A stretch of DNA of 64,000 bases from Blastocatellia bacterium (GTDB lineage Bacteria; Acidobacteriota; Blastocatellia; Chloracidobacteriales; Chloracidobacteriaceae), in NCBI GenBank assembly GCA_019695185.1, contig JAIBAN010000035.1, positions 1 through 64,000 of the forward strand. Direction: 5' to 3'. The notes below the pieces were generated by a model. It made no database searches and had not been told where the DNA came from. It saw nothing but the letters and a program-made list of their open reading frames with translations. This document shows positions 8,674-64,000 of the stretch, one piece after another. How positions within the stretch are numbered: the stretch's first letter is position 1; every line of letters starts with the position of its first letter. Made by a program: the position numbers and the translations under genes.

Positions 8674-9257
8674 ACTTTGAGAAAATTCCCCAAAATCGCA
8701 CTGCCGTCCGGCGTGCCGATGGATTCCGGGTGAAACTGGACCCCAAAAATCGGATGCCTGCGGTGCTCGACAGCCATTACCAGATTGGAGCGCGTTTCGC
8801 GGGCGGTGACCAGAAATTCCGCCGGGATGGTTGCTTCCTCTGCCACCAGTGAGTGATACCGCATGGCTTCAAACGAAGTCGGCAGGTTTTCAAACAACCG
8901 GGAAGCCTCCGTCACGGTCACCACACTTGATTTTCCGTGAACAATTTCAGGGGCCCGAACCACGTTTCCGCCAAAAAAGTGAATAATTCCCTGATGTCCC
9001 AGACAGACACCAAGCAACGGGCAACGGATTTCCTCGTAGCGGGTAATCACCTCGCGGCAGACGCCGAAATCGGTATCAATGCCGGGATGACCCGGACCAG
9101 GCGACAACAGAATGCGCGATGGCCGGCGGCTCAGCACTTCGGCAAAATCAAGCGCATCGTTCCGAAAGACCTCCACCGGTTCTTCCGTCAACGCCTGAAC
9201 CATTTGAAACAGGTTATAGGTAAACGAGTCGTAGTTATCGAGCAGCAGAATTGACAC
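8628..9257 (-). CDS. trpG: Anthranilate synthase component II (glutamine amidotransferase)
   Basis: TrpG releases ammonia from glutamine for TrpE. This class I amidotransferase of 209 aa has the nucleophile Cys85 in GVCLGHQ and the His176/Glu178 pair in FHPES. The start overlaps the end of trpE by 23 bp. The last residues, from about 195, read VQGSGFR twice and are translated from the heptamer array of element C; they are not part of the normal fold. TrpG may also serve p-aminobenzoate synthesis, as such subunits do in some bacteria. Confidence 0.96.
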   Translation of the reverse strand: MSILLLDNYDSFTYNLFQMVQALTEEPVEVFRNDALDFAEVLSRRPSRILLSPGPGHPGIDTDFGVCREVITRYEEIRCPLLGVCLGHQGIIHFFGGNVVRAPEIVHGKSSVVTVTEASRLFENLPTSFEAMRYHSLVAEEATIPAEFLVTARETRSNLVMAVEHRRHPIFGVQFHPESIGTPDGSAILGNFLKVQGSGFRVQGSGSFE

Positions 9258-10682: not shown

Positions 10683-10846
10683 TTTGAGTTTTGCGTTCCG
10701 CCTTCAGGCGGCAGTTTTGAGTTCCGCCTTCAGGCGGCTGGATTTTGCTTTTTCACTGAGAATTGAGTTCCTTATAGAAATGCAGACTAAAGGCTGGTTT
10801 CCAAGCTCCCGTCTGAAGGCGGAACTCAAAACTCAAAACTGTACTC
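10683..10846. repeat. Paired inverted 26-bp units (element D)
   Basis: The left part (10683-10740) holds two units of the form GTTCCGCCTTCAGGCGGCAG plus TTTTGA; each contains the palindrome CCGCCTTCAGGCGG. The right part (10806-10846) is one degenerate inverted unit followed by repeated AACTCAAA. The right arm provides the final residues (Tyr-Ser-Phe-Glu-Phe) and stop of aroF. Confidence 0.85.
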
Positions 10847-11665
10847 CGCTTGTGGAAGCGGTTTTCCGACCGCTGCCGCAATCGGCTCCACTTCCGCCAC
10901 AAGTTGTGCCAAATCATCAAATGACAGCGCCTGGGCCGCATCGGAGACGGACTTTTCGGGCTCCGGATGCACTTCCACAATCAGGCCATCAGCCCCCACG
11001 GCAACTGCCGCACGGGAGCAGGGAAGCACCAGACTGCGTTTCCCGGTGGCATGGCTGGGGTCCACAATGACCGGCAAATGTGTCATTTGCTTGAGGAGTG
11101 CCACGGAAGCGAGGTCCAGCACATTGCGTGTCAGCGGGTCAAAGCTGCGAATGCCGCGCTCGCACAAAATCACATGCGGATTGCCTTCACTCAGCACATA
11201 TTCGGCTGCATTGATGAATTCCTCAATGGTGGCCGCCAGACCGCGTTTCAAAAGGACCGGTTTGCGCATTTTTCCAAGCTCCTTGAGGAGTTCGAAATTC
11301 TGCATATTGCGCGACCCGACCTGAAAACAGTCAAAGGTGTCAGCCGCCTGTTCCAGATGGGTCACGGACATCACTTCACTGACAACCGCGAGTCCGGTTT
11401 CGCGTTTGATAGCCCGAAAAATCTCAAGCCCCGCCTCTCCCAAACCTTGGAAACTGTAGGGAGACGTGCGGGGCTTGTAGACGCCGCCACGAATGCAGCG
11501 AATGCCCAAACTTATGAGGGCATCAGCAGTCCGGCGCATTTGTTCAAAGGATTCGACAGCGCACGGACCAGCCATCAATGCCAGTTCCGGGCCGCCAACG
11601 GCGGTTGCGCCAACATGCACGGTTGACGCGGCGAGGTGTTCGGTTTTCAGTGCCAGAAGCTGCAT
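10826..11665 (-). CDS. aroF: 3-deoxy-7-phosphoheptulonate synthase (DAHP synthase, type I-beta)
   Basis: DAHP synthase condenses phosphoenolpyruvate and erythrose 4-phosphate, the first step of the shikimate pathway. The 279-aa barrel has MAGPCAVES, GGVYKPRTSPYSFQG, LLKRGLAATIEE, CERGIR and DPSHATGKR, all typical of the AroF/AroA(beta) class. No chorismate mutase or ACT domain is attached. The ATG at 11665 is chosen because a longer frame to 11842 would cover the attenuator. It is the first enzyme gene of the trp operon and lies directly behind a Trp-rich leader peptide and terminator, so this isozyme appears dedicated to tryptophan supply. The last residues are encoded by repeat element D. 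Confidence 0.96.
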   Translation of the reverse strand: MQLLALKTEHLAASTVHVGATAVGGPELALMAGPCAVESFEQMRRTADALISLGIRCIRGGVYKPRTSPYSFQGLGEAGLEIFRAIKRETGLAVVSEVMSVTHLEQAADTFDCFQVGSRNMQNFELLKELGKMRKPVLLKRGLAATIEEFINAAEYVLSEGNPHVILCERGIRSFDPLTRNVLDLASVALLKQMTHLPVIVDPSHATGKRSLVLPCSRAAVAVGADGLIVEVHPEPEKSVSDAAQALSFDDLAQLVAEVEPIAAAVGKPLPQAEYSFEF

Positions 11666-31822: not shown

Positions 31823-31896
31823 TTTTGAGTTCCGCCTTCAGGCGGCAGTTTTGAGTTCCGCCTTCAGGCGGCAGTTTTGAGTTCCGCCTTCAGGCG
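31823..31896. repeat. Three tandem 26-bp palindromic units after hslU (element M)
   Basis: Three direct copies of a unit with CCGCCTTCAGGCGG followed by CAGTTTTGAG. Each copy can form a hairpin followed by TTTT in the hslU direction, so the array could act as a weak terminator. A short inverted fragment (CGGAACTCAAAG) occurs about 80 bp further on, inside the next gene. Confidence 0.9.
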
Positions 31897-31916
31897 GTGG
31901 TTTGTTAGGTTCCCTC

Positions 31917-42898: not shown

Positions 42899-43040
42899 TT
42901 TGGAGTTCCGCCTTCAGGCGGCAGTTTAGAGTTCCGCCTTCAGGCGGCAAGACTATGGTTTCCATTTTTATGGATAATCCAGTTTTAAAAAAGTCTTAGG
43001 GTTGTAGGCCAAACAGCCGTCCGAAAGAAGAACTCAAAAC
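42899..43040. repeat. 26-bp palindromic units with a weak inverted partner (element P)
   Basis: Two direct units with CCGCCTTCAGGCGG at 42899-42949 and a degraded inverted partner (about 43016-43040). It fills the spacer before the HEAT-repeat gene. Confidence 0.7.
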
Positions 43041-47462: not shown

Positions 47463-48509
47463 ATGTTTGAAAAATTCGTACCGTGGCTTGGCCAGGATAT
47501 TGCCATTGATTTGGGAACGGCCAACACGTTGATTTTTGCCAAGGGGCATGGATTGGTCCTCAACGAACCTTCAGTGGTGACCTTCCATGAAGTAACCGGT
47601 AAAGTCGAAGCCGTCGGCAAAACCGCCCGCGCCATGCTGGCGCGCACGCCCCATTCCATGCGGACGGTCCAACCGCTCAAAGACGGCGTGGTCGCCAATC
47701 TCACTGCAACCGAACACATGCTCTCCCACTTTCTAAAAAGCATCCGCAAATATTGCGGGCAGTTTGGGGTGCGGGCTTTGGTCGGAGTCACCAGCGATGC
47801 CACACCGGTCGAGAGCCGGGCCATCATTCATGCGGCTTTGAGAGCCGGCTGCAAAAGCGTCCGGTTGGTGCCTGAACCGCTGGCTGCCGCCATCGGAGCC
47901 GGGTTGGCCGTGGCCGAACCAATGGGGCGGATGATTGTGGATATCGGCAGCGGGGTCACCGACATTGCCGTCATCAGTCTTTCCGACATTGTGCTCTCAC
48001 AAACCCTTCGGACTGCCGGGTCGCAGCTTGATGCAGCCATCATGCAGCACGTCCGCCATGAACACCTGCTGCTCATCGGAGAACCGACTGCCGAGCACAT
48101 CAAAATGAAGATTGGCTCTGCCATGCCGCTTTCCACCCCGCGTTCCCTGGAAATCACCGGGCGCAGTTTGACCGACGGGTTGCCCCGCACGGTGAAGCTG
48201 CATGATGCGGAAATCCGGCAGGCCATCACCCCCGTGGTGGACCAGATTATGATGGCTGTGCGCAAGGCGCTGGACAAAGTTCCACCCGAAGTTTCAGCCG
48301 ACCTGACCGAGCAGGGCATTGTGCTGACCGGAGGCATGGCGTACCTGAAAGGTCTGACCGAACGGCTTTCCCTGGAAACCCGCTTGCCGGTCCAAGTGGC
48401 TCCCGAACCAATGCTCTCAGTTGTTTACGGCGTCAGCCAGATGCTTGAAGTTGCCGCCCAGACCGACGGTCCGACCATGCCCTGGACGCTCCGCCCCAGT
48501 GAAGGCTAA
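47463..48509 (+). CDS. mreB: Rod-shape determining protein MreB
   Basis: A 348-aa actin-like ATPase that assembles under the membrane and directs side-wall synthesis. The phosphate 1 loop DLGTANT and the phosphate 2/adenosine motifs (IVDIGSGVTDIAVISLSD, GIVLTGG) are present, as is EPTAEHIKMKIGSA. No mreC, mreD, pbp2 or rodA follows, which is unusual. Instead, membrane glycosyltransferase-like genes come next on the same strand. It may be a second, stand-alone MreB copy. The ATG at 47463 gives the canonical N-terminus. Confidence 0.93.
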   Translation: MFEKFVPWLGQDIAIDLGTANTLIFAKGHGLVLNEPSVVTFHEVTGKVEAVGKTARAMLARTPHSMRTVQPLKDGVVANLTATEHMLSHFLKSIRKYCGQFGVRALVGVTSDATPVESRAIIHAALRAGCKSVRLVPEPLAAAIGAGLAVAEPMGRMIVDIGSGVTDIAVISLSDIVLSQTLRTAGSQLDAAIMQHVRHEHLLLIGEPTAEHIKMKIGSAMPLSTPRSLEITGRSLTDGLPRTVKLHDAEIRQAITPVVDQIMMAVRKALDKVPPEVSADLTEQGIVLTGGMAYLKGLTERLSLETRLPVQVAPEPMLSVVYGVSQMLEVAAQTDGPTMPWTLRPSEG

Positions 48510-48520
48510 AACCATCAGGA

Positions 48521-48544
48521 AACTGAGGACTGAGGACTGAGGGA
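48521..48544. repeat. Short GGACTGA array (element Q)
   Basis: Three GGACTGA units after mreB; a degenerate partner (CCTTAGTCCTGAG) lies at about 48655-48668 just before the next ATG. The region resembles a decayed spacer element. Confidence 0.7.
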
Positions 48545-48671: not shown

Positions 48672-50382
48672 ATGGCCGTACCCTCCCGAAAAATCAGTCC
48701 ATGGATAGACGGAGTGGTGCTAAGTTTGGTGTTTGTTGCCCTGGCAGTCTGGAGTTGGCGGAAATGCCCTGACCTGACCATTGACTTTGGCATGCAGGCG
48801 TATATTCCCTGGCAAATTACCCAGGGAAAGCACCTGTATACCGATATTGCCTGGAAATACGGCCCCTTTTCCCAATATCTGGATGCAGCGTTGTTCCGTC
48901 TGTGTGGCGTTTCGCTGACCACCCTTTTCGTTGCCAATCTGGCCAATCTGGCGCTCATCACCACCCTGCTGTACAGGATATTCGTTCAGTTTACCGAGCG
49001 CTGGGTAACGGTTGTCATCGGAATTGTGTTTTTATCTGTGTTTGGCATTGCCCAATATACCTGGATGGGCAACTGGAACTATGTCACGCCGTACGTTCCG
49101 GAAGCCGGGCATAGTGTCACGCTGTCACTGGCGGCGCTGTGGGGGCTGACCCGTTATCAAACCGGCCTCAATCTTCGCTGGCTCTGGCTTTCCGGCACCT
49201 GTTTTGGATTGATTTGCCTGACCAAAATCGAAGCGGTGGTGGCGGTTGGCGGTTGTCTGAGTGTTGGCCTGGCCTTGATTGCTTTTATTCATCAAAGAAC
49301 TCCACGCCAAGTGGCAGGAATGCTTCTGCATCTGGGGGGAGCCACCGCCGTTCCAATCCTGCTGGGAGTTTTTCTGCTCTGGACCCGGATGCCATTGGCA
49401 ACTGTCGTCGAAGGGCTTTTGGCAAACGTCACGCTGACGGTCAAAAGCGATATGGCCAACAGTCGGTTCTACAAAAAACACATGGGAACCGATGACATTG
49501 CCGGAAATCTGGGGATGATGGTTCGCCTGTTTGGCGGTTTGCTGCTGGTGGTGGCTGGCGGGGTTGGGCTGGAACGGGTGTTGGGCCGTCAGGACAAAAA
49601 ACAGTGGTTGTTCCGGTTTCTGATCTTCGCCGGGGTTTCCCTGCTGGCAGTCCTGCGGCGCAAGGGGGCTGTTTGCTTTGGCGATGCTGGCAAAAATCAT
49701 TTTACGGTCGGCCACCGGAACCTATGGTTTTATTCATGCCATGCCTGCAGGGCTTTTCCTGACAGCCGGGCTCTTGTCTTTGGGGCCGGCTCTGCTTCGG
49801 ACCACAGGCTGGGGGCAAGGTGAGGTGTTTCGCTCGCTGCTGCTGGGTTTGATATCCGCTTGTATCTGGTTTCACGTGAATTGGACCAACAGTCATTTCA
49901 AACTGAAAACCAATCCTTTTGGCAATGGCGGAGATACAATCTTGACCTATCCGACGCAGCTTGATACCCGCAATGCAGTGTTGCAGGAATTGCAGGTTGA
50001 TTTGGCCGCCCGGCTCAAACCCACTGAGACGTTGGTTGTCTTGCCTGAAGGAATTTTGCTGAACTATCTGTTTCGGAAAACCAATCCCACTCCCTATATT
50101 GTCTTCACACCTTATGACCTGGTGTCTTACGGGGGCGAAACGGTCACCTTGCAAGGGCTTCAAACCCATGCCCCGGACGTGATTGTCCTGTTACAGCGTA
50201 CTTTTGGCGATTGGGAATTTCCACCCTTTGGAACGGATGCGCGATACGGCCAGGCCATTTCAAACTGGATGCGGCAACAGTATGTTTGTGTGCGGGTGAT
50301 TGGTGCCGAACCGGGAACGGGAAGCAAAGCGTATGGGGTTGCCGTTTGGCAGCGAAAACCGGTTGGAGGTGCCGTTCCATGA
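48672..50382 (+). pseudogene. Polytopic GT-C-like membrane protein, frameshifted
   Basis: The first reading frame (ATG at 48672) encodes ~330 residues with many membrane helices. The rest, starting with LAMLAKIILRSATGTYGF and ending at 50382, is in another frame. A homologue at 62283-64000 reads through both parts in one frame, so the two pieces are one gene. The frame break coincides with an inserted block near 49629-49672 that is nearly identical to the 3' end of the methyltransferase gene 2.4 kb downstream; removing ~34 bp restores alignment. Motif WKYGPFSQYLDAALF is shared with the homologue and is typical of ArnT/PMT-like families. The 3' part overlaps the GT2 start (ATGA), so it may still be expressed. 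Confidence 0.8.
49629..49672 (+). repeat. 39-bp block shared with the methyltransferase 3' end
   Basis: Positions 49629-49667 are identical to 52055-52093; after one mismatch four more bases agree. In the methyltransferase it encodes a natural family-like tail (GVSLLAVLRRKG). Here it splits the membrane-protein gene and causes its frameshift. Confidence 0.9.
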
Positions 50383-51353
50383 AGCCTGACCTGCCGCAGT
50401 TTTCCCTGGTGGTTCCGATTTTTAATGAAGAGTCATTGATTCACGTTCTGCATGCGGAAGTCCTCCGGGTCATGGAATCAATTGGTGAACCGTGGGAAGT
50501 CGTGTATGTCAATGACGGAAGTTCCGACCGTTCACTGGAACTGCTGCTGGAACGCCAGCGTGCCGACGAACGGGTCGTGGTGGCCGAGCTTTCGCGTAAC
50601 TGGGGGCATCAGTCAGCTTTGACTGCCGGTCTTTCGTTGGCTCAAGGGCAGGCGGTTATTTTAATGGATGGTGATTTGCAGGACCCGCCGGAAGTCATCC
50701 GGGAAATGGTGACAGCTTGGCGGGAGGGCGGCCAGGTGATTGTGGCGGAACGACGTAAACGGACAGAATCGGGGCTGCGCCGATTGTGGTTTCCGCTGTT
50801 CTATCGAATCCTGGCGTATTTATCGGATTTCCCTATTCCGCTCAATGCCGGTATTTTTGGCCTGTTGGACCGCAAGGCGGTGGATGCCATTCTGAAATTG
50901 ACCGAAAGCAACCGCTATCTGCCGGGGCTTCGGTCCTGGGTTGGGTTTCGCACGGCTGTCATTTATTACGAACGGGCCGGGCGCTATGCCGGGGAACCCA
51001 AACAAACTTTTTGGAAGCTGTTGCGCTATGGGTTGGACGCCATTTTCAGTTTTAGCTATAAACCCTTGCGGTTGAGTCTGGTGATGGGACTGCTCACCGC
51101 CGGATTTGCACTTTTTTACGGGATGTTGTTGTTGGTGTGCCGTGTGTGGGGGATTGGAATGTTTGGGATTCCAGTGGTGGACGGTTATACCAGCACCATT
51201 GTTTCAATCCTTTTTTTGGGGGGCACCCAATTGATTTGCGTTGGGGTGTTGGGTGAATACATTGGCCGGATTTACGATGAGGTCAAACGCCGCCCGCTCT
51301 TTTTTATCCAGCAGGTCCACCGGACCTCGGTTCCACCATCCAATCCTACATGA
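50379..51353 (+). CDS. Family 2 glycosyltransferase (DPM1/ArnC-like)
   Basis: A 324-aa GT-A enzyme anchored by two C-terminal membrane helices. The nucleotide-binding VNDGSSD and the metal-binding DGDLQDPP motifs identify polyprenyl-phosphate sugar transferases of the dolichyl-phosphate mannosyltransferase type. The start ATGA overlaps the stop of the preceding membrane gene; its stop overlaps the methyltransferase start in the same way. Such GT2 enzymes make polyprenyl-phosphate sugars that GT-C proteins use as donors, which fits the flanking polytopic proteins. Confidence 0.92.
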   Translation: MKPDLPQFSLVVPIFNEESLIHVLHAEVLRVMESIGEPWEVVYVNDGSSDRSLELLLERQRADERVVVAELSRNWGHQSALTAGLSLAQGQAVILMDGDLQDPPEVIREMVTAWREGGQVIVAERRKRTESGLRRLWFPLFYRILAYLSDFPIPLNAGIFGLLDRKAVDAILKLTESNRYLPGLRSWVGFRTAVIYYERAGRYAGEPKQTFWKLLRYGLDAIFSFSYKPLRLSLVMGLLTAGFALFYGMLLLVCRVWGIGMFGIPVVDGYTSTIVSILFLGGTQLICVGVLGEYIGRIYDEVKRRPLFFIQQVHRTSVPPSNPT

Positions 51354-52129
51354 ATCCAGCCGAATATCACGCCCTTGCCCGGATTGACCGCACCCATTGG
51401 TTTTACGTGGGGAAGCGGGCGATTGTCCGTTGGTGGCTTGAACGGTTTTTGCACCTGACCCCAGACAGCCTGCTGATTGATGCCGGAATGGGAACGGGAA
51501 CCTGGCTGGAGGAAATGGGGACCGTCTGCCGGATTCTTGGTCTTGACAGTTCACCGGAGAGTCTGGCCATTGCCCGGCCTCGCATCCAGGCCCTTGGGGG
51601 GGATGTTTTGCAAACCACCCTCGACCGGATTGACCTGCCGGACGGCACAGCCACCGTGGTCACCATGCTGGATGTGCTGGAGCATCTGGACGATGACCTG
51701 ACGGCCTTGCGGGAAGCCATCCGGCTGACCCGTCCGGGCGGTCTGGTGGTTGTCACGGTTCCGGCGCTGCGTTGGTTGTGGAGTGATTGGGACGTGGTGT
51801 TGCACCATCGACGGCGTTATCACCTGCAAGAGTTCCGCCTTCTGATTTCCCAGCCGGAAGTGGAAGTCCTGCATTGCGCCTATTTTAATTCGCTGTTGTT
51901 GCCTCTGGTTTTTCTGGTTCGGATGTGGCGCAAAGTCTTTCCACCCAAGGCTGGCGCGCCCAGGGCCGAAGACCGGATTCCTGCGGCTCCGGTCAATTTC
52001 CTGCTGGAGCAATTGCTGGTTCGGCCAGCCTGCTGGCCCTGGTTCCATCCACCTGCCGGGGTTTCCCTGCTGGCAGTCCTGCGGCGCAAGGGGACTGTGG
52101 CTGCGGCGGCTGAACCCTGCGGAACCTGA
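51350..52129 (+). CDS. Class I SAM-dependent methyltransferase
   Basis: A 259-aa methyltransferase. The SAM-binding glycine motif is IDAGMGTGTWLEEM, and LDVLEHLDDD corresponds to motif IV. The hydrophobic C-terminal part probably lies against the membrane. Its tail GVSLLAVLRRKG contains the 39-bp block shared with the frameshifted gene upstream. The ATG overlaps the GT2 stop by 4 nt. Substrates may be a glycolipid or polyprenyl-linked sugar. Confidence 0.9.
   Translation: MNPAEYHALARIDRTHWFYVGKRAIVRWWLERFLHLTPDSLLIDAGMGTGTWLEEMGTVCRILGLDSSPESLAIARPRIQALGGDVLQTTLDRIDLPDGTATVVTMLDVLEHLDDDLTALREAIRLTRPGGLVVVTVPALRWLWSDWDVVLHHRRRYHLQEFRLLISQPEVEVLHCAYFNSLLLPLVFLVRMWRKVFPPKAGAPRAEDRIPAAPVNFLLEQLLVRPACWPWFHPPAGVSLLAVLRRKGTVAAAAEPCGT
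52055..52093 (+). repeat. 39-bp block, native copy
   Basis: Identical to 49629-49667. Here it is in frame and encodes the final part of the methyltransferase, consistent with being the source copy. Confidence 0.85.
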
Positions 52130-53824: not shown

Positions 53825-53985
53825 AAGGACTGAGGACTGAGGATACAACCAAGGACTGAGGACTGAGGACTGAGGATACAGCTAAGGACTGAGGACTGAG
53901 CTGCGAAAGAGGCAAGACCCGGATTTGATACGAAGCTATCCAATTGGATTTTACTCAGTCCTCAGTCTTCAGTCCTCAGTCCTTA
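53825..53985. repeat. Paired inverted TCAGTCC arrays (element R)
   Basis: The left arm 53825-53903 contains three runs of GGACTGA separated by ATACAACCAA and ATACAGCTAA. The right arm 53951-53985 is a single run of TCAGTCC-type units. It spans from 7 bp after the DinB-like start codon to the TAA of the kinase gene, which is itself part of the array edge (TAAGGACTGA). Confidence 0.92.
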
Positions 53986-56550
53986 CTTGGTGGCATATTG
54001 CCGACATAATTCCAGCCATTGCACTCGGAGGGGCTCCATGATTTGCAGGAATTGCGGGTCATCCTGGAGGTGTTTCCAATCCGGATTGTTGCGGAACCAC
54101 GGATAGTTTTCATTTCCCAGGCTGATGGCCTTCCGGAGCCAGGAAAGCGCGTCCTGGTCCTGATGCATGGCGGCATAAACGGAAGCCAGCCAGTAGGCTG
54201 CATCTCCATCCGCACTGGCGATATTGCGCACGGCATCGTTGACGAGGGCAGCGGCTTTTTCCGGATGACCGGCCTGCACATGACAGAGGCCGTAAATCGG
54301 GCGGAATCCATGCAGGTCTGGGTTGCCGTCCAGCACACCCCGCAAGGTTTGTGAAGCCTCGTCATATTTGCCCATGTAATACTGCACCTGACCCAGCACC
54401 ATGCGAGTGAAGGGATGGTCGGGTTCGTAGAAAAGTGCCCCTTCCAGTTCGTTCAAGGCCTCGTCATAGCGCCCTTGATACATCATCACACGGGCCCGGT
54501 TATAGGCTGCCTGAACCATATCCGTCGGGTTCAGCTTGATACAGATTTCATATTGCTGAAGCGCCTGTTCATAGAGCCCATCCCAGCGGAACACGTACCC
54601 GGCAATGCTATGGACCGTCGCATCGTTGCCGGCAATCGTCAGCACCCGTTTGATTTGGGCCCGGGCTTCGGCCTTTTCGCCTTTGAGCAGGTGGATATAG
54701 ACCATGTTTGACTGGGGCTCAATCAAACTGTCATCCAACTGCATGGCCCGGCGAAACCGTTCTTCGGCCCGTTCGAAATGAAGTGGCCCGCCGATGCCTT
54801 TGAGCACATACTGTACATAGGTCAGGCCCAGACCGGAGTAGGCGAGCGCAAAGTTTTCATCCCGTGCCAGGGCGTTTTCAAACATTTCGATGGCCGAGCT
54901 GAAGTCGTCTTTCATCATGGTCTGCATGAACCGGTTCAACTGGTTCCGACCCTTCAAATAGAACTCATAGGCTTCGGCATTAGTGGTGGCCGGTTTGGCA
55001 ATCCGAACCTGCTCGGTTTCGCTGATGCGGACCCGCAGTTCATCCACGATTTTGCGGGAAATCATGTCTTGCAGGGTGATAATGTCAGCAGCGTCGAGGT
55101 CAATCTTGTCACTCCACAAAATTTCGCCGGTATTGATGTCAATCAATTGAGGCGTCACCCGGAAACGGTTTCCCGATTTGAGGTAAGCGCTGACCAGAAT
55201 CGCATCCACTTTCAATTCATGGCCCACCACCTGCGGGTCTACCGCTTTTCCCTGGTATTTGGCGATGTAACTGGAAGGCCGCACCACCAATGACTTGAGC
55301 GTTGCCAGTTCGGTAATCAGACTGTCGGCCAGCGAAAAACTGTAGAAATCGGATTCCGGGTCGCCGCTCAGGTTCTTGAACGGCAGGATGGCAATGGTCC
55401 GTTTTTCGGAATTTTTCCAGGTGCTGGGCGTCGAATCACGCAGGGAACGGGTTGAACGGGGCTCGTTTGAAGGGTCGGGCGTTTCCCGAACAGCCGTTGG
55501 CATTGACGGAATGGACGTAGGCACCGGTGTCTGCGACATCTCTCCCCTGGTGGATGGCCCTTCCCGCTGGGTTTGAGAAGGTGGTCGCTCGCCGGGTGAC
55601 ATAAAGCGGTTGAGCAGTCGTCCCACCATGCCGTTTTTGAGCCAATTGGATTTTTCGTGGCGCGGGGCTACTGTGGGCAGGAGGGATTCGTCCGTTACGC
55701 CTCCGGTCTGGGCCTGAACCGCCCGCAGGAGCTGCTTCAAATCGGTCTGAAAATCCCGCATGGTCTGATAGCGGGCCGCCGGGGTCTTGGCCATGGCCCG
55801 GTCCAGAATGGATTGCAAACGGTCCGGCAGATTGGGGTTGGTTTGGGCCACCGGAGGTGCCGGTTCGTGCATAACGGCATGCATGATATCCACGCTGCTC
55901 TTGCCCTGGAACGGCAGTTTTCCGGTCACCATCTCATAAATCAACACGCCCAGCGAAAAAATGTCGGAACGCTGGTCAATCGTACCACCTCTGGCCTGCT
56001 CCGGTGACATATATCCGGCGGTGCCAAAGGGAACTCCGGCCTGGGTCAAATCCATGACGGACTGGTCGCCAATTGTGGTGATGGTGGCTTTGGCCAGCCC
56101 GAAATCAAGGATTTTGGCCTGTCCCCGGTCATTGACGATGACATTCGTGGCTTTGACATCGCGGTGAATGACCCCCCGTTCATGGGCGGCGGCCAGAGCG
56201 TCAGCCAACTGAATGGCAATCGAAAGGGCACTTTCAATTTCCAGCGGGCGACCCCGCACCATTTGTTTCAGCCGTTTTCCTTCAAGATACTGCATGACGA
56301 TAAAGTGCAGGTTCTTGTCTTCGTTGATTTCGTAAACGGTGCAGATATTGGGGTGGTCGAGGGCGGAGGCGAGTTGGGCTTCACGGAGGAATCGTTTGCG
56401 GGATTTCTCGTCGGCGACCAGTTCCGCCGGGAGGATTTTAATTGCAACGGTTCGACGCAAGCGGGTGTCTTCGGCTTGGTAAACTTCACCTTGGCCGCCT
56501 TCGCCAAGCTTTTTGAGAATTTTATAATGCAGGAGGTACGTGCCAATCAT
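53983..56550 (-). CDS. Serine/threonine protein kinase with TolB-like and TPR domains
   Basis: An 855-aa cytoplasmic kinase. The kinase domain is residues ~8-270, with GEGGQGEVY, ATP-binding Lys38, catalytic HRDVKATN (Asp131), and DFGLAKA (about 149-155). A Pro/Ser/Thr-rich linker follows, then a TolB-like domain (IAILPFKNLSGDPESDFYS, about 400-520), then eight or so TPR repeats (AYSGLGLTYVQYV... to ~840). The architecture without a transmembrane segment is common in Acidobacteriota. It is probably regulated by protein-protein contacts through the TPRs. The TAA stop is at the edge of element R. Confidence 0.93.
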   Translation of the reverse strand: MIGTYLLHYKILKKLGEGGQGEVYQAEDTRLRRTVAIKILPAELVADEKSRKRFLREAQLASALDHPNICTVYEINEDKNLHFIVMQYLEGKRLKQMVRGRPLEIESALSIAIQLADALAAAHERGVIHRDVKATNVIVNDRGQAKILDFGLAKATITTIGDQSVMDLTQAGVPFGTAGYMSPEQARGGTIDQRSDIFSLGVLIYEMVTGKLPFQGKSSVDIMHAVMHEPAPPVAQTNPNLPDRLQSILDRAMAKTPAARYQTMRDFQTDLKQLLRAVQAQTGGVTDESLLPTVAPRHEKSNWLKNGMVGRLLNRFMSPGERPPSQTQREGPSTRGEMSQTPVPTSIPSMPTAVRETPDPSNEPRSTRSLRDSTPSTWKNSEKRTIAILPFKNLSGDPESDFYSFSLADSLITELATLKSLVVRPSSYIAKYQGKAVDPQVVGHELKVDAILVSAYLKSGNRFRVTPQLIDINTGEILWSDKIDLDAADIITLQDMISRKIVDELRVRISETEQVRIAKPATTNAEAYEFYLKGRNQLNRFMQTMMKDDFSSAIEMFENALARDENFALAYSGLGLTYVQYVLKGIGGPLHFERAEERFRRAMQLDDSLIEPQSNMVYIHLLKGEKAEARAQIKRVLTIAGNDATVHSIAGYVFRWDGLYEQALQQYEICIKLNPTDMVQAAYNRARVMMYQGRYDEALNELEGALFYEPDHPFTRMVLGQVQYYMGKYDEASQTLRGVLDGNPDLHGFRPIYGLCHVQAGHPEKAAALVNDAVRNIASADGDAAYWLASVYAAMHQDQDALSWLRKAISLGNENYPWFRNNPDWKHLQDDPQFLQIMEPLRVQWLELCRQYATK

Positions 56551-56943
56551 ATAAATGCGGGCGGGAATTCCGCTCCAAAGTAAGCCCTTGGGGATGATGC
56601 GGCTTTAACCAACGGGGACGTCTGCCGTTTGCCGTTTCCAGAGTATTGGTTGTTGATTGTCGGTTGTCGGTTGTCGGTTGTAAAGGATGGAACGTGAGAA
56701 AAGCAAGCAGGCCGGCAACAAACAAAGGGCAAAGAACAAAATCGCCGTCGATGAAATGCTTGATTTCGGCTATCGGTCGGTGAAAGCCTGCGGATTCGTG
56801 CGGCGATACTAGACCATTTTCCCTGACGAGGAAAGGATAAAATCAATTCCCCAGGACTGAGGACTGAGGACTGAGGACTGAGGGGTTTATCCTGATATGA
56901 GGTCAAGGCTTTCAAACAATCTGAGCCGATTCCCAGAGTATTC
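56551..56943. other. Spacer between Ser/Thr kinase and NtrC-type regulator
   Basis: 393 bp. It holds a GGTTGTC tandem array (56642-56683, four to five units, no inverted partner found), the TCAGTCC element S, and no other gene. I see no convincing promoter for the kinase. Confidence 0.4.
56642..56683. repeat. GGTTGTC tandem array (element U)
   Basis: Four to five GGTTGTC heptamers. Unlike the paired elements, no inverted copy is found nearby. It represents an additional 7-bp family. Confidence 0.8.
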
Positions 56944-56960
56944 TCAGTCCTCAGTCCTGG
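56851..56960. repeat. Paired inverted TCAGTCC arrays (element S)
   Basis: The left arm is 56851-56885 (four GGACTGA units) and the right arm 56940-56960 (two TCAGTCC units) with a ~55-bp loop. The right arm encodes the last codons and stop of the NtrC-type regulator. Confidence 0.9.
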
Positions 56961-59877: not shown

Positions 59878-59972
59878 GGACGATTCTCCAAAGTTTGGTT
59901 TGGGTTTTGAGTTTTGGCTTGTTTTTGTTTAGGGTTGCATCCGCATGCCCATCCTGATTGGAGAGTCTCTGT

Positions 59973-62261
59973 ATGTCTGCGGCAGCACCGCCGGTGGCAG
60001 CACCCAAAGTACCCGAATCTGTTCCTGTTCCATCCGGATTTCTTTCCCGGCTCTCGGTTGGACCTTGCCTGTTTGGACTGGGCCTGCTGGCCCGGCTATC
60101 CAATGTTTTCGGCGTTTTGACACCCGTTGGGGTGTTTCCTCAAGCCACAGACTCCTATTATCATCTCCGGCGGATTGGTTATGTGGTCCGGCATTTTCCC
60201 CATCTGCCACCCGATTCTGACCGCTATTTGAACTTCCCCTTCGGCGGTCCGGTCGAGTGGCCTTACGGGTTTGATTTTTGCTACGGCACCTTCATCCAGA
60301 TTGTGACATTGGGTCAAGCGAATCAATGGTGGATTTACGCCTTGGCTTCGGTTTTGACCCCGCTGATAGGTGCTTTGACGGCTTGTCTGACGTTTCAGCT
60401 TGGGATTCACTTGGGGGGCCGCAAGGTTGGGCTGTGGGCCGGATTGCTGACTGCCATTTTGCCGGCTCTGACCATTACCGGTGGTATCGGTTATGTGGAC
60501 CATCATGTTTTCGAGTCCTTCTGGCTGGCTTTTTTCCTGTTGGCATATGTGCGAGCCATTGCCGCCACCAGTTCTCAAAGCCTGTGGCAGCAATCCATCC
60601 TGGCAGGATGCGGAGTCACTGCCGGGTTGCTGACCACCACCATGATTCCACTGTTGTTGCCACTGCATGCCGGGGTTTTTTTCTGGCAAATGGTCAGGGT
60701 TTGGAAAGAACCGGACCTGCGGCAAAGGCTCTGGGGGGTGAATGCCTTGGTGTGGGGAACCACCAGTCTGAGCTTGCTGCCCTTTGTCGCAACCCGCTGG
60801 GCGGAACCTGCCGGGGTGAGTCCGGCCCTGACCATCTCCTGGGTGCTGGCATTTTCAATGGCTCTGGTGAGCTGCCTGGGGGCCCAGGTGGCGGGGTTCC
60901 CGGTTCCTGCTGGAATGTACCGGGTTGGGTGGGTGCTGCTGTTGGTGCTTGGCGGGCTGGCCTGCTGGCGGCTTGATTTCACGTCTGCCACCAAGCTCGT
61001 CACCTTTGGTCTCCGGCATCTTTCGACCACCGACCCCTGGATTGCATCCATTCAGGAAAGCCAGCATTTGTTTTCCAAATCGTTCCGGTATATAGCCTGG
61101 ACCTACTCCGGATTTTTTATTTTTTTCCCGGTTGCCTTGGGTTGGCTTCTGGTAAATGGCTGGCGTTCCTCACTGGCCGGCTGGACCCTGGGGATTCTGA
61201 CCCTCCCGTTGGCGGTCCTGGCATGTTTACAGTTACGCTTCAGCGACATCTTCACCGTGCCTTACGCCCTGGTAATGGGGTTTTTCATCCAGGTCATGGT
61301 GCAAAAGCTCAATCAGTGGTTTGGCAGACAGCCGCACTTGGCAACGTTCAAGTTCAAACCTCTGCTGTGGGCCGGATTAGGATTGGCATTTTTGTGGCCG
61401 ACGATAACCGAATTTTCCTTTTCCCGTCCATTTGTGGTGGTTGAGGGGAATACCTTTGTCAATCTTTATCCCAGCTTGCTGTGGATTGCCGAACATACGC
61501 CGCCAACCAGTCCCCAAGGTGACCAGCCGCAGGATTACGCCATTGCCGCCGATTGGAATCTGGGGCATTGGCTGCTTGAGTTTTCCCACCGTCCGGTCGT
61601 GGCTTCTCCGCTAGGTCACGGGGTCCATCGGCAAGGCTTGCGGGATGGTGCCGCGATTCTTACCTTTCCGCCTGAAGATTCCTTGAAGCTCATGCAAACG
61701 CGGCGAGTGCGGTATGTTTGGGTGACACCCCTGAATGCCCAGCAAACCCTGCGCAATGCCTGTTGGGATGAAACCACCAATCAGGCTGTGCTGACCGGAG
61801 AGGAAAACACACTGCTTCGGAAAAGCCTGTTGGCGGAATTGCTTGGGCACGACGGCGTGCCGTTTGAACGCCCTGCGGCAGCCGTGTTACGCCATTTTCG
61901 CCTGGTGCATGAAACCGCGCCGGACCTCCATTACCCTGGTTTGAACCGGCCTTTCGGGATGCTCTTTGAACGGGTTCCGGGCGCACAGCTTCAGGGGCAG
62001 GTGGCACCCCGTGCATCCGTGACGATTTCGGCGGAAATTCGGACGGCAGAAGGCAGAACCTTTATGTATCGGGATACGATTCAGGCTGACGCTACCGGTA
62101 CCTTTTCCGGGGTGCTGCCCTACGCAGGTGGAATCCAACGGTTTTCTGAGGTTTGTTTGGTTCAACGTTACAAAATCGAGTCAGACGGAAAAACCGGCGA
62201 AGTCACGCCGTCAGAAACTGAGGTGCTGAATGGTTCCCCTCTCGGAATTCAGTTGAAGTAA
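59973..62261 (+). CDS. STT3-like oligosaccharyltransferase (GT66 family)
   Basis: A 762-aa protein with ~12 membrane helices and a C-terminal periplasmic domain. STT3/PglB/AglB-type features: the first acidic motif ATDSYYHLRR (Asp about 59), the DHH motif in YVDHHVFE (about 175), and a putative WWDxG equivalent, AADWNLGHWLLEFSHRPVV (about 525), in which the conserved WWDYG is changed to DWNLG. Such enzymes transfer glycans from lipid carriers to protein asparagine. The ATG at 59973 with GGAGAG upstream is preferred over TTG at 59958. Protein glycosylation is therefore plausible but the altered motif calls for a direct test. Confidence 0.82.
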   Translation: MSAAAPPVAAPKVPESVPVPSGFLSRLSVGPCLFGLGLLARLSNVFGVLTPVGVFPQATDSYYHLRRIGYVVRHFPHLPPDSDRYLNFPFGGPVEWPYGFDFCYGTFIQIVTLGQANQWWIYALASVLTPLIGALTACLTFQLGIHLGGRKVGLWAGLLTAILPALTITGGIGYVDHHVFESFWLAFFLLAYVRAIAATSSQSLWQQSILAGCGVTAGLLTTTMIPLLLPLHAGVFFWQMVRVWKEPDLRQRLWGVNALVWGTTSLSLLPFVATRWAEPAGVSPALTISWVLAFSMALVSCLGAQVAGFPVPAGMYRVGWVLLLVLGGLACWRLDFTSATKLVTFGLRHLSTTDPWIASIQESQHLFSKSFRYIAWTYSGFFIFFPVALGWLLVNGWRSSLAGWTLGILTLPLAVLACLQLRFSDIFTVPYALVMGFFIQVMVQKLNQWFGRQPHLATFKFKPLLWAGLGLAFLWPTITEFSFSRPFVVVEGNTFVNLYPSLLWIAEHTPPTSPQGDQPQDYAIAADWNLGHWLLEFSHRPVVASPLGHGVHRQGLRDGAAILTFPPEDSLKLMQTRRVRYVWVTPLNAQQTLRNACWDETTNQAVLTGEENTLLRKSLLAELLGHDGVPFERPAAAVLRHFRLVHETAPDLHYPGLNRPFGMLFERVPGAQLQGQVAPRASVTISAEIRTAEGRTFMYRDTIQADATGTFSGVLPYAGGIQRFSEVCLVQRYKIESDGKTGEVTPSETEVLNGSPLGIQLK

Positions 62262-62282: not shown

Positions 62283-64000
62283 TCAGTGGCGAACTGATTC
62301 CGGTGGCGGATTGACTCCACGTGATCGAAGACGCAAAAAGGCAATCCCGTATTGATTGGAAGTCATGGGTTGCGCACCAATCAGGTGAACCTGTTCATAG
62401 TTTTGCCACACCCAATCCATAATCAACTTGCCATAGTGAGGGTCAGCCCCAAAGAACCCGGTTCCCCATTCGGTTGTGTCTCGGTGCATAAGGGTAATGT
62501 AATCAGGGGGATGCGCTTGAATTCGCTGCAAAACCTGCGGCTCTCCTCCATAGATATCGAAATCAAGCTTCAACAAGGATGTGTAAGGAGTTGGATTGGG
62601 GCGGCGGGCGAGATAGTTCAGGCTAAGCCCTTCAGGCAGTACCAACAAAGTGGTATTGGGAGGTAGGCTTTGGGCGTATTCAAGTGCCAAAGCAAAACCA
62701 TAGGGAGCAAAATCCAGCCTGGGATCGAAGGTAAGCAGTGTGTCGCCGCCTTCGCCAATCGTGAATGTTTTCAAGGCATACAAGCGGTCCGACCATTGCC
62801 AGTAGAAAACCACCCCAGCTAACACCGCTCCAACCAGCCCAGCCCGAAAGAGATCGCCCCCACCGGGCCCCCATCGCTGGGAAAGCACCTGTGGCAGAAT
62901 CGTCATGAAACCTGAAGTCAGCAGCAGCATTGCAGGCATGGCATGGACAAATCCATAAAAATCAATGCGTGCATGCAGAATGATTTTGCCCAGCATGAGA
63001 AAGGAAAAGACTCCCCAGCCAACCATAATGATTGACCGGCACCGGCGTTCACGGTCACTCCATCCACGCAGGCAGTCAACTCCCCAAAATGTGGTAAAAA
63101 AGATGGTGGTTACTGGTAGAACACGTCCGATTTGAGGCCAGTTCCACCAGTCTGGCATCGCCCAAAGCGCAACGAACACAGCCGTTCCATAGGCATACTT
63201 GATCCAGGGCCGGTTTCGGTTGGCTTGGTGCAGGGCAATCGCTAATCCCGCAATGATTCCGATACCGCCTAACAAGGCTAACGAAACCTTCACCATGTGC
63301 CAGAAGTTGGCCACCGGAGCGTCAAAACCGGAAATATACCGATATAAAAGAATTTCACTGAGATTACTTCGGAAAATATAAGGCCAACTGCCTGCGGTTA
63401 CGTGAATAGCCTGGGAAAGAGGGAGAAAGCCAGCAAAAAAGCCCACAGAGAACAAAACTGGAGCAAGAAAGCCAACTGCGTAGGTGGCTAATCGACTGAG
63501 TGCCGGTTTCCGTTCGGTTCCGGCCCACAGAACCAATCCAAAAAGAATTGCACAGACTCCAGAAGCCAAAAACGGTTCTGATTTCAATAAAAAAACCCCA
63601 CCCAGGCTCACTCCGGCCAATCCGAAATAACGATGGTTTTGGGTTTGAAAAGATATCTTCCAGCACCAGATATGAAAGACGGAAAGGATGACGCTGTGGG
63701 TCATTTCATACGAGTAAGGACAGATATAGTTATAGGTTCCGACGCCGGTCAGATATTGCGAGAAACAGAAAACACCCAGGAAAACCAAGGTACTCAACCG
63801 CGCTGACCACACATTGCAGGTGTCTCGAAACAGAAGGAATAAAAACCAGGCAGTGGCTGCCGTCAATGCCAAATTGACACCTATCAGAGTGGTTATCGAA
63901 ACTCCAAACCAACGAAACATGAGGGAATGAAAGTAAACTGACAGAGGGCCGTACTTCCAAACAATGTCAAAGTCGAGCATTTTCCCCAACGAAAGCTGCC
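62283..64000 (-). CDS. Polytopic GT-C-like membrane protein (5' end beyond the window)
   Basis: The sequenced part encodes at least 570 residues, open to the window edge, so the N-terminus is missing. Ten or so membrane helices are followed by a soluble end. The conserved motif WKYGPLSVYFHSLMF and the tail (DPHYGKLIMDWVWQNYE) match the frameshifted gene at 48672-50382, of which this is an intact paralogue. It is probably a transferase using polyprenyl-linked sugars, like ArnT or PMT relatives. It is convergent with the STT3-like gene, only 21 bp apart. Confidence 0.85.
   Translation of the reverse strand, partial: QLSLGKMLDFDIVWKYGPLSVYFHSLMFRWFGVSITTLIGVNLALTAATAWFLFLLFRDTCNVWSARLSTLVFLGVFCFSQYLTGVGTYNYICPYSYEMTHSVILSVFHIWCWKISFQTQNHRYFGLAGVSLGGVFLLKSEPFLASGVCAILFGLVLWAGTERKPALSRLATYAVGFLAPVLFSVGFFAGFLPLSQAIHVTAGSWPYIFRSNLSEILLYRYISGFDAPVANFWHMVKVSLALLGGIGIIAGLAIALHQANRNRPWIKYAYGTAVFVALWAMPDWWNWPQIGRVLPVTTIFFTTFWGVDCLRGWSDRERRCRSIIMVGWGVFSFLMLGKIILHARIDFYGFVHAMPAMLLLTSGFMTILPQVLSQRWGPGGGDLFRAGLVGAVLAGVVFYWQWSDRLYALKTFTIGEGGDTLLTFDPRLDFAPYGFALALEYAQSLPPNTTLLVLPEGLSLNYLARRPNPTPYTSLLKLDFDIYGGEPQVLQRIQAHPPDYITLMHRDTTEWGTGFFGADPHYGKLIMDWVWQNYEQVHLIGAQPMTSNQYGIAFLRLRSRGVNPPPESVRH

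Follow-up and report, generated by a model that had tools for sequence, protein, structure and literature searches.

A probable deletion patched with DNA from a neighbouring methyltransferase gene in a polytopic protein gene of a Blastocatellia bacterium

A polytopic protein gene in a chromosomal glycosyltransferase gene cluster appears to have undergone a complex mutation, in which about 50–57 codons would have been deleted and the resulting hole filled with a short piece of a gene lying 2.4 kb away. We examined the first 64,000 nucleotides of one contig (C177:1–64000, hereafter "the window", meaning the whole stretch of DNA that was analysed) of a Blastocatellia genome of 8.33 Mb assembled in 222 contigs, and we consider it quite likely that the locus records a real deletion with templated filler, by whatever route, including the two-step route discussed below. 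The features on which the argument turns are as follows:

48672..49823, + strand: N-terminal part of the broken polytopic gene, then an unrelated tail and a stop (open frame; weak PF13231 match)
49624..50382, + strand: C-terminal part of the polytopic gene, family-like from ~49669 (open frame; 42–43% identity to the paralogue)
49629..49667, + strand: copied 39-bp block in the polytopic gene, the putative filler (sequence match; genome pattern search)
49664..49668, + strand: five-G run at the right edge of the block; the reading frame changes in or beside it
50379..51353, + strand: glycosyltransferase family 2 gene, between the two copies of the block
51350..52129, + strand: class I methyltransferase gene (Methyltransf_11, E 2.6e-16), intact
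52055..52093, + strand: source of the block, native at the 3' end of the methyltransferase (sequence match; family alignment)
62283..64000, − strand: intact polytopic paralogue, used as reference; it continues past the window end (637-residue open frame in L020)

The repeated block and its source

The sequence at 49629–49667 is the same as that at 52055–52093 at 39/39 bases, in direct orientation and with a start-to-start distance of 2,426 bp, exactly as the original prediction had described for the polytopic gene and the 3' end of the methyltransferase gene; the match extends to 44 bp (to 49672; 43/44 bases) with one mismatch at position 49668. Chance would be expected to supply 9e-15 exact 39-bp pairs in the window, given its base composition, and 1.5e-10 in the genome; the longest direct repeat across 50 first-order Markov resamples of the window was 17 bp. 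When the genome was searched for a pattern made of 34 of the 39 bases, allowing at most two mismatches, the block turned up in exactly two places, and a mobile or dispersed repeat is thereby ruled out.

The flanks of the two copies are dissimilar (identity 0.25–0.35 over 40 bp and 0.27–0.31 over 45 bp). Gene conversion resembles the event at this locus in that it copies sequence non-reciprocally within a genome; however, it requires flanking homology, which is absent here. The short gene conversion that had been offered earlier as one explanation does not fit two loci lacking homology outside the block, and we rule it out.

The family alignments indicate which copy is native. Among 18 methyltransferase homologues, aligned from the 69 loci found, all 18 have, where the window protein reads GVSLLAV near its C-terminus, a G-x-S with mostly hydrophobic residues after it; the exact heptapeptide occurs in one of them (L027), and near-identical versions occur in L028–L031 and L042. 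By contrast, none of the 22 polytopic relatives examined contains GVSLLAV. We conclude that the block comes from the methyltransferase end, which supports the earlier view that the block is foreign in the polytopic gene; copying in the reverse direction, from the polytopic gene into the methyltransferase gene, is ruled out, since the block belongs natively to the methyltransferases. One polytopic relative, L023, has GASLL in the corresponding segment, a similarity between hydrophobic stretches that we attribute to chance.

The nearest methyltransferase relatives that carry a name belong to MAG records with the titles Akkermansiaceae (L027) and Acidobacteria (L028 and L029). The glycosyltransferase and methyltransferase genes are adjacent in L027–L031 as well, and L028 has a polytopic gene upstream, ~1.9 kb ahead of the glycosyltransferase gene; the methyltransferases of L027–L029, at 55–58% against that of the window, are too distant to reveal the ancestral junction.

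Shortening and reading frame of the polytopic gene

A search with the C-terminal part gave 24 matches: the gene itself, 12 intact close relatives, two rows (L024 and L026) and nine distant relatives. The 12 intact relatives comprise two paralogues from the same genome (L020 on C177 and L025 on C196) and ten proteins from other genomes of the family (L004–L010 and L021–L023); L024 and L026, which both stem from a single G004 gene, itself split, were left out of the family alignment. The two open frames of that G004 gene (G004:C1, ~1861280–1861306) meet near a run of ten T, a split that may reflect slippage or an on/off tract, or a sequencing error.

We aligned the N-terminal and C-terminal parts with the 12 intact relatives and counted the length of the affected segment between the anchors GLE and (L/V)F. 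This segment spans 70–77 residues in 12/12 intact relatives (mean 72.8), compared with 20 native residues in the window gene; in ten more distant relatives (the nine distant matches and the L028 gene) it spans 62–98 residues. Measured against the 12 close relatives, ~50–57 codons are missing from the window gene; the copied block supplies ~11–12 codons in the hole, which leaves the gene a net ~40 codons shorter than its close relatives. The shortening appears in each of three MAFFT modes, which place the gap somewhat differently, so that where exactly the deletion begins and ends varies with the alignment. With 20 native residues in place of 70–77, and with the block standing in the hole, we therefore read the locus as a deletion with templated filler DNA rather than as an insertion. 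In the original prediction the block made the gene some 34 bp longer than the intact paralogue; this did not hold, and a simple 34-bp insertion is ruled out by the alignment with the 12 relatives, checked with the ten more distant ones.

The broken gene is weakly PMT_2-like at most, as judged from profile scores: PF13231 (PMT_2) matches its N-terminal part with E 0.0061 and 17.2 bits, below the curated cut-off of 26.1; the intact paralogue scores 24.5 bits against the same cut-off; and a Pfam profile search gave no PF13231 match in the C-terminal part. Adjoining the intact paralogue, positions 59958–62261 of the window encode a 767-residue protein with matches to oligosaccharyltransferase STT3 (E 9e-9) and to the archaeal AglB_L1 domain (E 9e-14).

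The N-terminal frame, which begins at 48672, meets its stop at 49823, and that of the C-terminal part is open over 49624–50382, which bears out the earlier claim that the reading frame shifts at the block. Both genes share one reading frame across the block (GVSLLAVLRRKG), and it is at the right edge of the block, in or beside the five-G run, that the polytopic gene goes out of frame. Runs of G are a usual site of sequencing indels; the break in the frame is therefore less certain than the deletion. Three alignment columns (W, P and W) are invariant in 12/12 relatives; two of them are lost to the gap, and the block now occupies the place of the third; the loss of these residues argues for a predicted loss of function whether or not the frame is broken. 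The polytopic gene is most likely now a young pseudogene, and two intact paralogues remain in the genome. The event is probably recent, because the C-terminal frame contains no stop and the two copies of the block are still identical.

A very different reading, which we regard as highly improbable, is that the block represents a useful change: it would rebuild a membrane helix (WLFRFLIFAGVSLLAVL), and full-length protein would be made via slippage at the G run. The shared frame of the block in the two genes, the mean hydropathy of 2.19 over 17 residues of its hydrophobic stretch, and the GASLL of L023 in the corresponding segment would all be in keeping with such a role; however, the hydrophobicity is already expected from the source, the residues invariant in 12/12 relatives are missing, and five G form a short run for slippage.

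It also seems rather unlikely that the scar arose in the library or the assembly, i.e. that a read was chimeric or the assembler took a wrong path locally, so that the scrap was added and ~150–170 bp were dropped from a gene that is in truth intact. The assembly is a draft, in 222 contigs, and the frame change adjoins a G run, where indel errors commonly fall; nevertheless, the joins share at most ~7 bp on the left and ~3–4 bp on the right, as far as can be judged with the target sequence lost, which is too little for a k-mer path error. Scaffold-like runs of N were not found in the 139 sequences checked (24 of them from relatives), in which N occurred only in two wholly masked small contigs and in one block of exactly 5,000. 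Furthermore, an artefact of a systematic kind should recur, whereas no other such pair was recognised in 1.87 Mb. The high estimated completeness of the assembly (99.73%, with contamination of 0.13%) likewise speaks against an artefact. A sister strain with the intact gene was sought in nine other genomes of the family, where no DNA-level match reached the junction.

Routes to a patched deletion

The deletion with templated filler could have arisen in a single event, and we infer a replication-linked, Ku-independent route. DNA synthesis in the polytopic gene would stop near 49629–49635; a short match of a few bases would let the broken-off strand anneal to the methyltransferase gene at its 3' end; roughly 30–39 bases would be copied from there; and the strand would return to its own template ~150–170 bases further on, the frame being lost at the right-hand junction. 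As an alternative within the same replication-linked class, a short stray strand might anneal at the target. The edges of the block, GCCGGGG on the left and GGGG on the right, permit microhomology at the joins, presumably up to GCCGGGG on the left and GGG on the right, the ancestral target sequence having been lost. A nearby piece in direct orientation at a deletion junction, together with non-homologous flanks, commonly marks template switching at a replication fork or the annealing of a stray strand; template switching, as named in the original prediction, is the class of mechanism that we prefer. GC skew was weak and was not used.

According to Hastings et al. 2009 (PMC2621351), microhomology junctions followed by stretches from elsewhere are what sets such events apart from plain end joining; FoSTeS and MMBIR are proposed there for amplification in E. 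coli and for human rearrangements, and amplification at E. coli Lac is described with microhomology of 2–15 bp. The window locus resembles FoSTeS and MMBIR in having a short stretch derived from elsewhere after the junction and a return ahead of the break with a deletion (PMC2621351); it differs in consisting of a single very short copied piece (~30–39 bp), and its microhomology is putative, the ancestral sequence having been lost.

Filler DNA at end-joining junctions likewise combines a deletion with inserted sequence at the join. The difference here is that the genome gave 0 matches to Ku (PF02735), a profile that matched one of 14 control genomes (Bacillus subtilis); Ku-dependent end joining, and hence a Ku-dependent NHEJ junction, is therefore unlikely. 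Polymerase-theta end joining is a eukaryotic pathway.

SPDIR offers a further comparison. In this process a short single-stranded piece anneals at the replication fork, independently of RecA; it was reportedly linked by Harms et al. in 2016 to experiments in Acinetobacter baylyi. At the window locus, as in SPDIR, a short intragenomic piece substitutes for a chromosomal stretch without long homology; the deletion, which we deduce from one scar, is at ~150–170 bp larger than is typical of SPDIR. A review describes a relaxed identity requirement for SPDIR and holds its natural rate to be insignificant, and the latter speaks against an SPDIR-like reading (PMC7192050). We thus regard as somewhat doubtful the proposal that this is a natural and recent intragenomic patch of the SPDIR kind, in which a stray strand of ~39 nt from 2.4 kb away replaced ~150–170 bp in a genome with no detectable Ku gene. 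One match to DprA (PF02481) and four to DHHA1-domain proteins (PF02272; three over the cut-off) were found in the genome, and these do not decide for or against SPDIR.

The same product could be reached from two breakpoints in two steps: a tandem duplication whose joint brings the methyltransferase end up against the polytopic gene, and then a deletion that starts in the polytopic gene and reaches into the first copy of the methyltransferase, leaving only the scrap behind. This route, the likelihood of which is counted within that of the deletion-with-filler reading as a whole, is conceivable and is not the one we favour. The direct orientation and the 2.4-kb distance fit it, and E. coli is known to amplify DNA through joints with microhomology (PMC2621351); on the other hand, two rare events would be needed, and the genome, with the block in two places only, holds no further copy. 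One event and the two-step route yield the same product and are indistinguishable from the present sequence.

Similar pairs elsewhere and significance

We surveyed 1,873,240 non-N bases of the genome (66 pieces, ~22% of the genome) for exact pairs of at least 20 bp separated by no more than 10 kb. We discarded pairs that overlapped or lay close together, pairs of low complexity, direct words occurring at least five times per piece, and members of repeat families defined by ten short motifs. After filtering, 156 pairs remained, seven of which have dissimilar flanks, and the 39-bp pair of the window is the longest of the seven. An earlier survey without the family filter gave 50 isolated pairs in 1,083,825 bases of G000 (5,585 N), 42 of which were assigned by eye to a few short repeat families, and 11 isolated pairs in 333,832 bases of the relative G003.

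The other six pairs have varied settings. Two (L113 and C60) lie inside long repetitive proteins: the open frames concerned, in G000:C14 (~1538 and ~2261) and G000:C60 (~23384), are of 1793 and 1604 residues and contain recurring LTNGN(F/Y)V units. Two more (L133 and L107) are inverted pairs outside open frames of at least 100 residues, and our guess is that the L107 pair represents IS ends. L115 (G000:C16) has an isolated exact 22-bp direct pair, 9068–9089 and 11034–11055, 1,966 bp apart; a 116-residue open frame carries one copy close to its end, and no open frame of at least 100 residues covers the other. The last, on C7, is a 20-bp inverted pair adjoining the palindromic repeat seen in the window, and it looks like a variant of that repeat family. 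Among the five other pairs whose setting was read, none has its copies in two unrelated protein genes, and a pattern of many such events was not seen in the 1.87 Mb surveyed.

Two kinds of repeat in the window recur in the rest of the genome. Members of the palindromic family (GCCGCCTGAAGGCGGAACTC; units 26 bp apart) lie at 10693–10827, 31827–31898 and 42903–42948, with eight matches in the window compared with 0 expected in shuffles, and the repeat is present in other contigs too. Runs of the 7-bp unit GGACTGA, in both orientations, occupy 53826–53989, 56834–56958 and 48507–48543, and the unit is likewise found elsewhere in the genome.

The scar is of a known and ordinary kind of mutation, and a single case leaves knowledge of the mechanism unchanged. 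As an example of a complex mutation in a bacterium it is clean, and simple insertion/deletion calling would misread it: what appears to be a small frameshifting insertion becomes, once set against the family, a ~50-codon deletion with a templated patch. A scan of many genomes for short exact pairs that stand alone and have one member breaking up a family-conserved gene would make the frequency of such events in wild bacteria countable. If the SPDIR-like reading is true, such patching leaves pseudogenes in nature, beyond the laboratory species in which it has been described.
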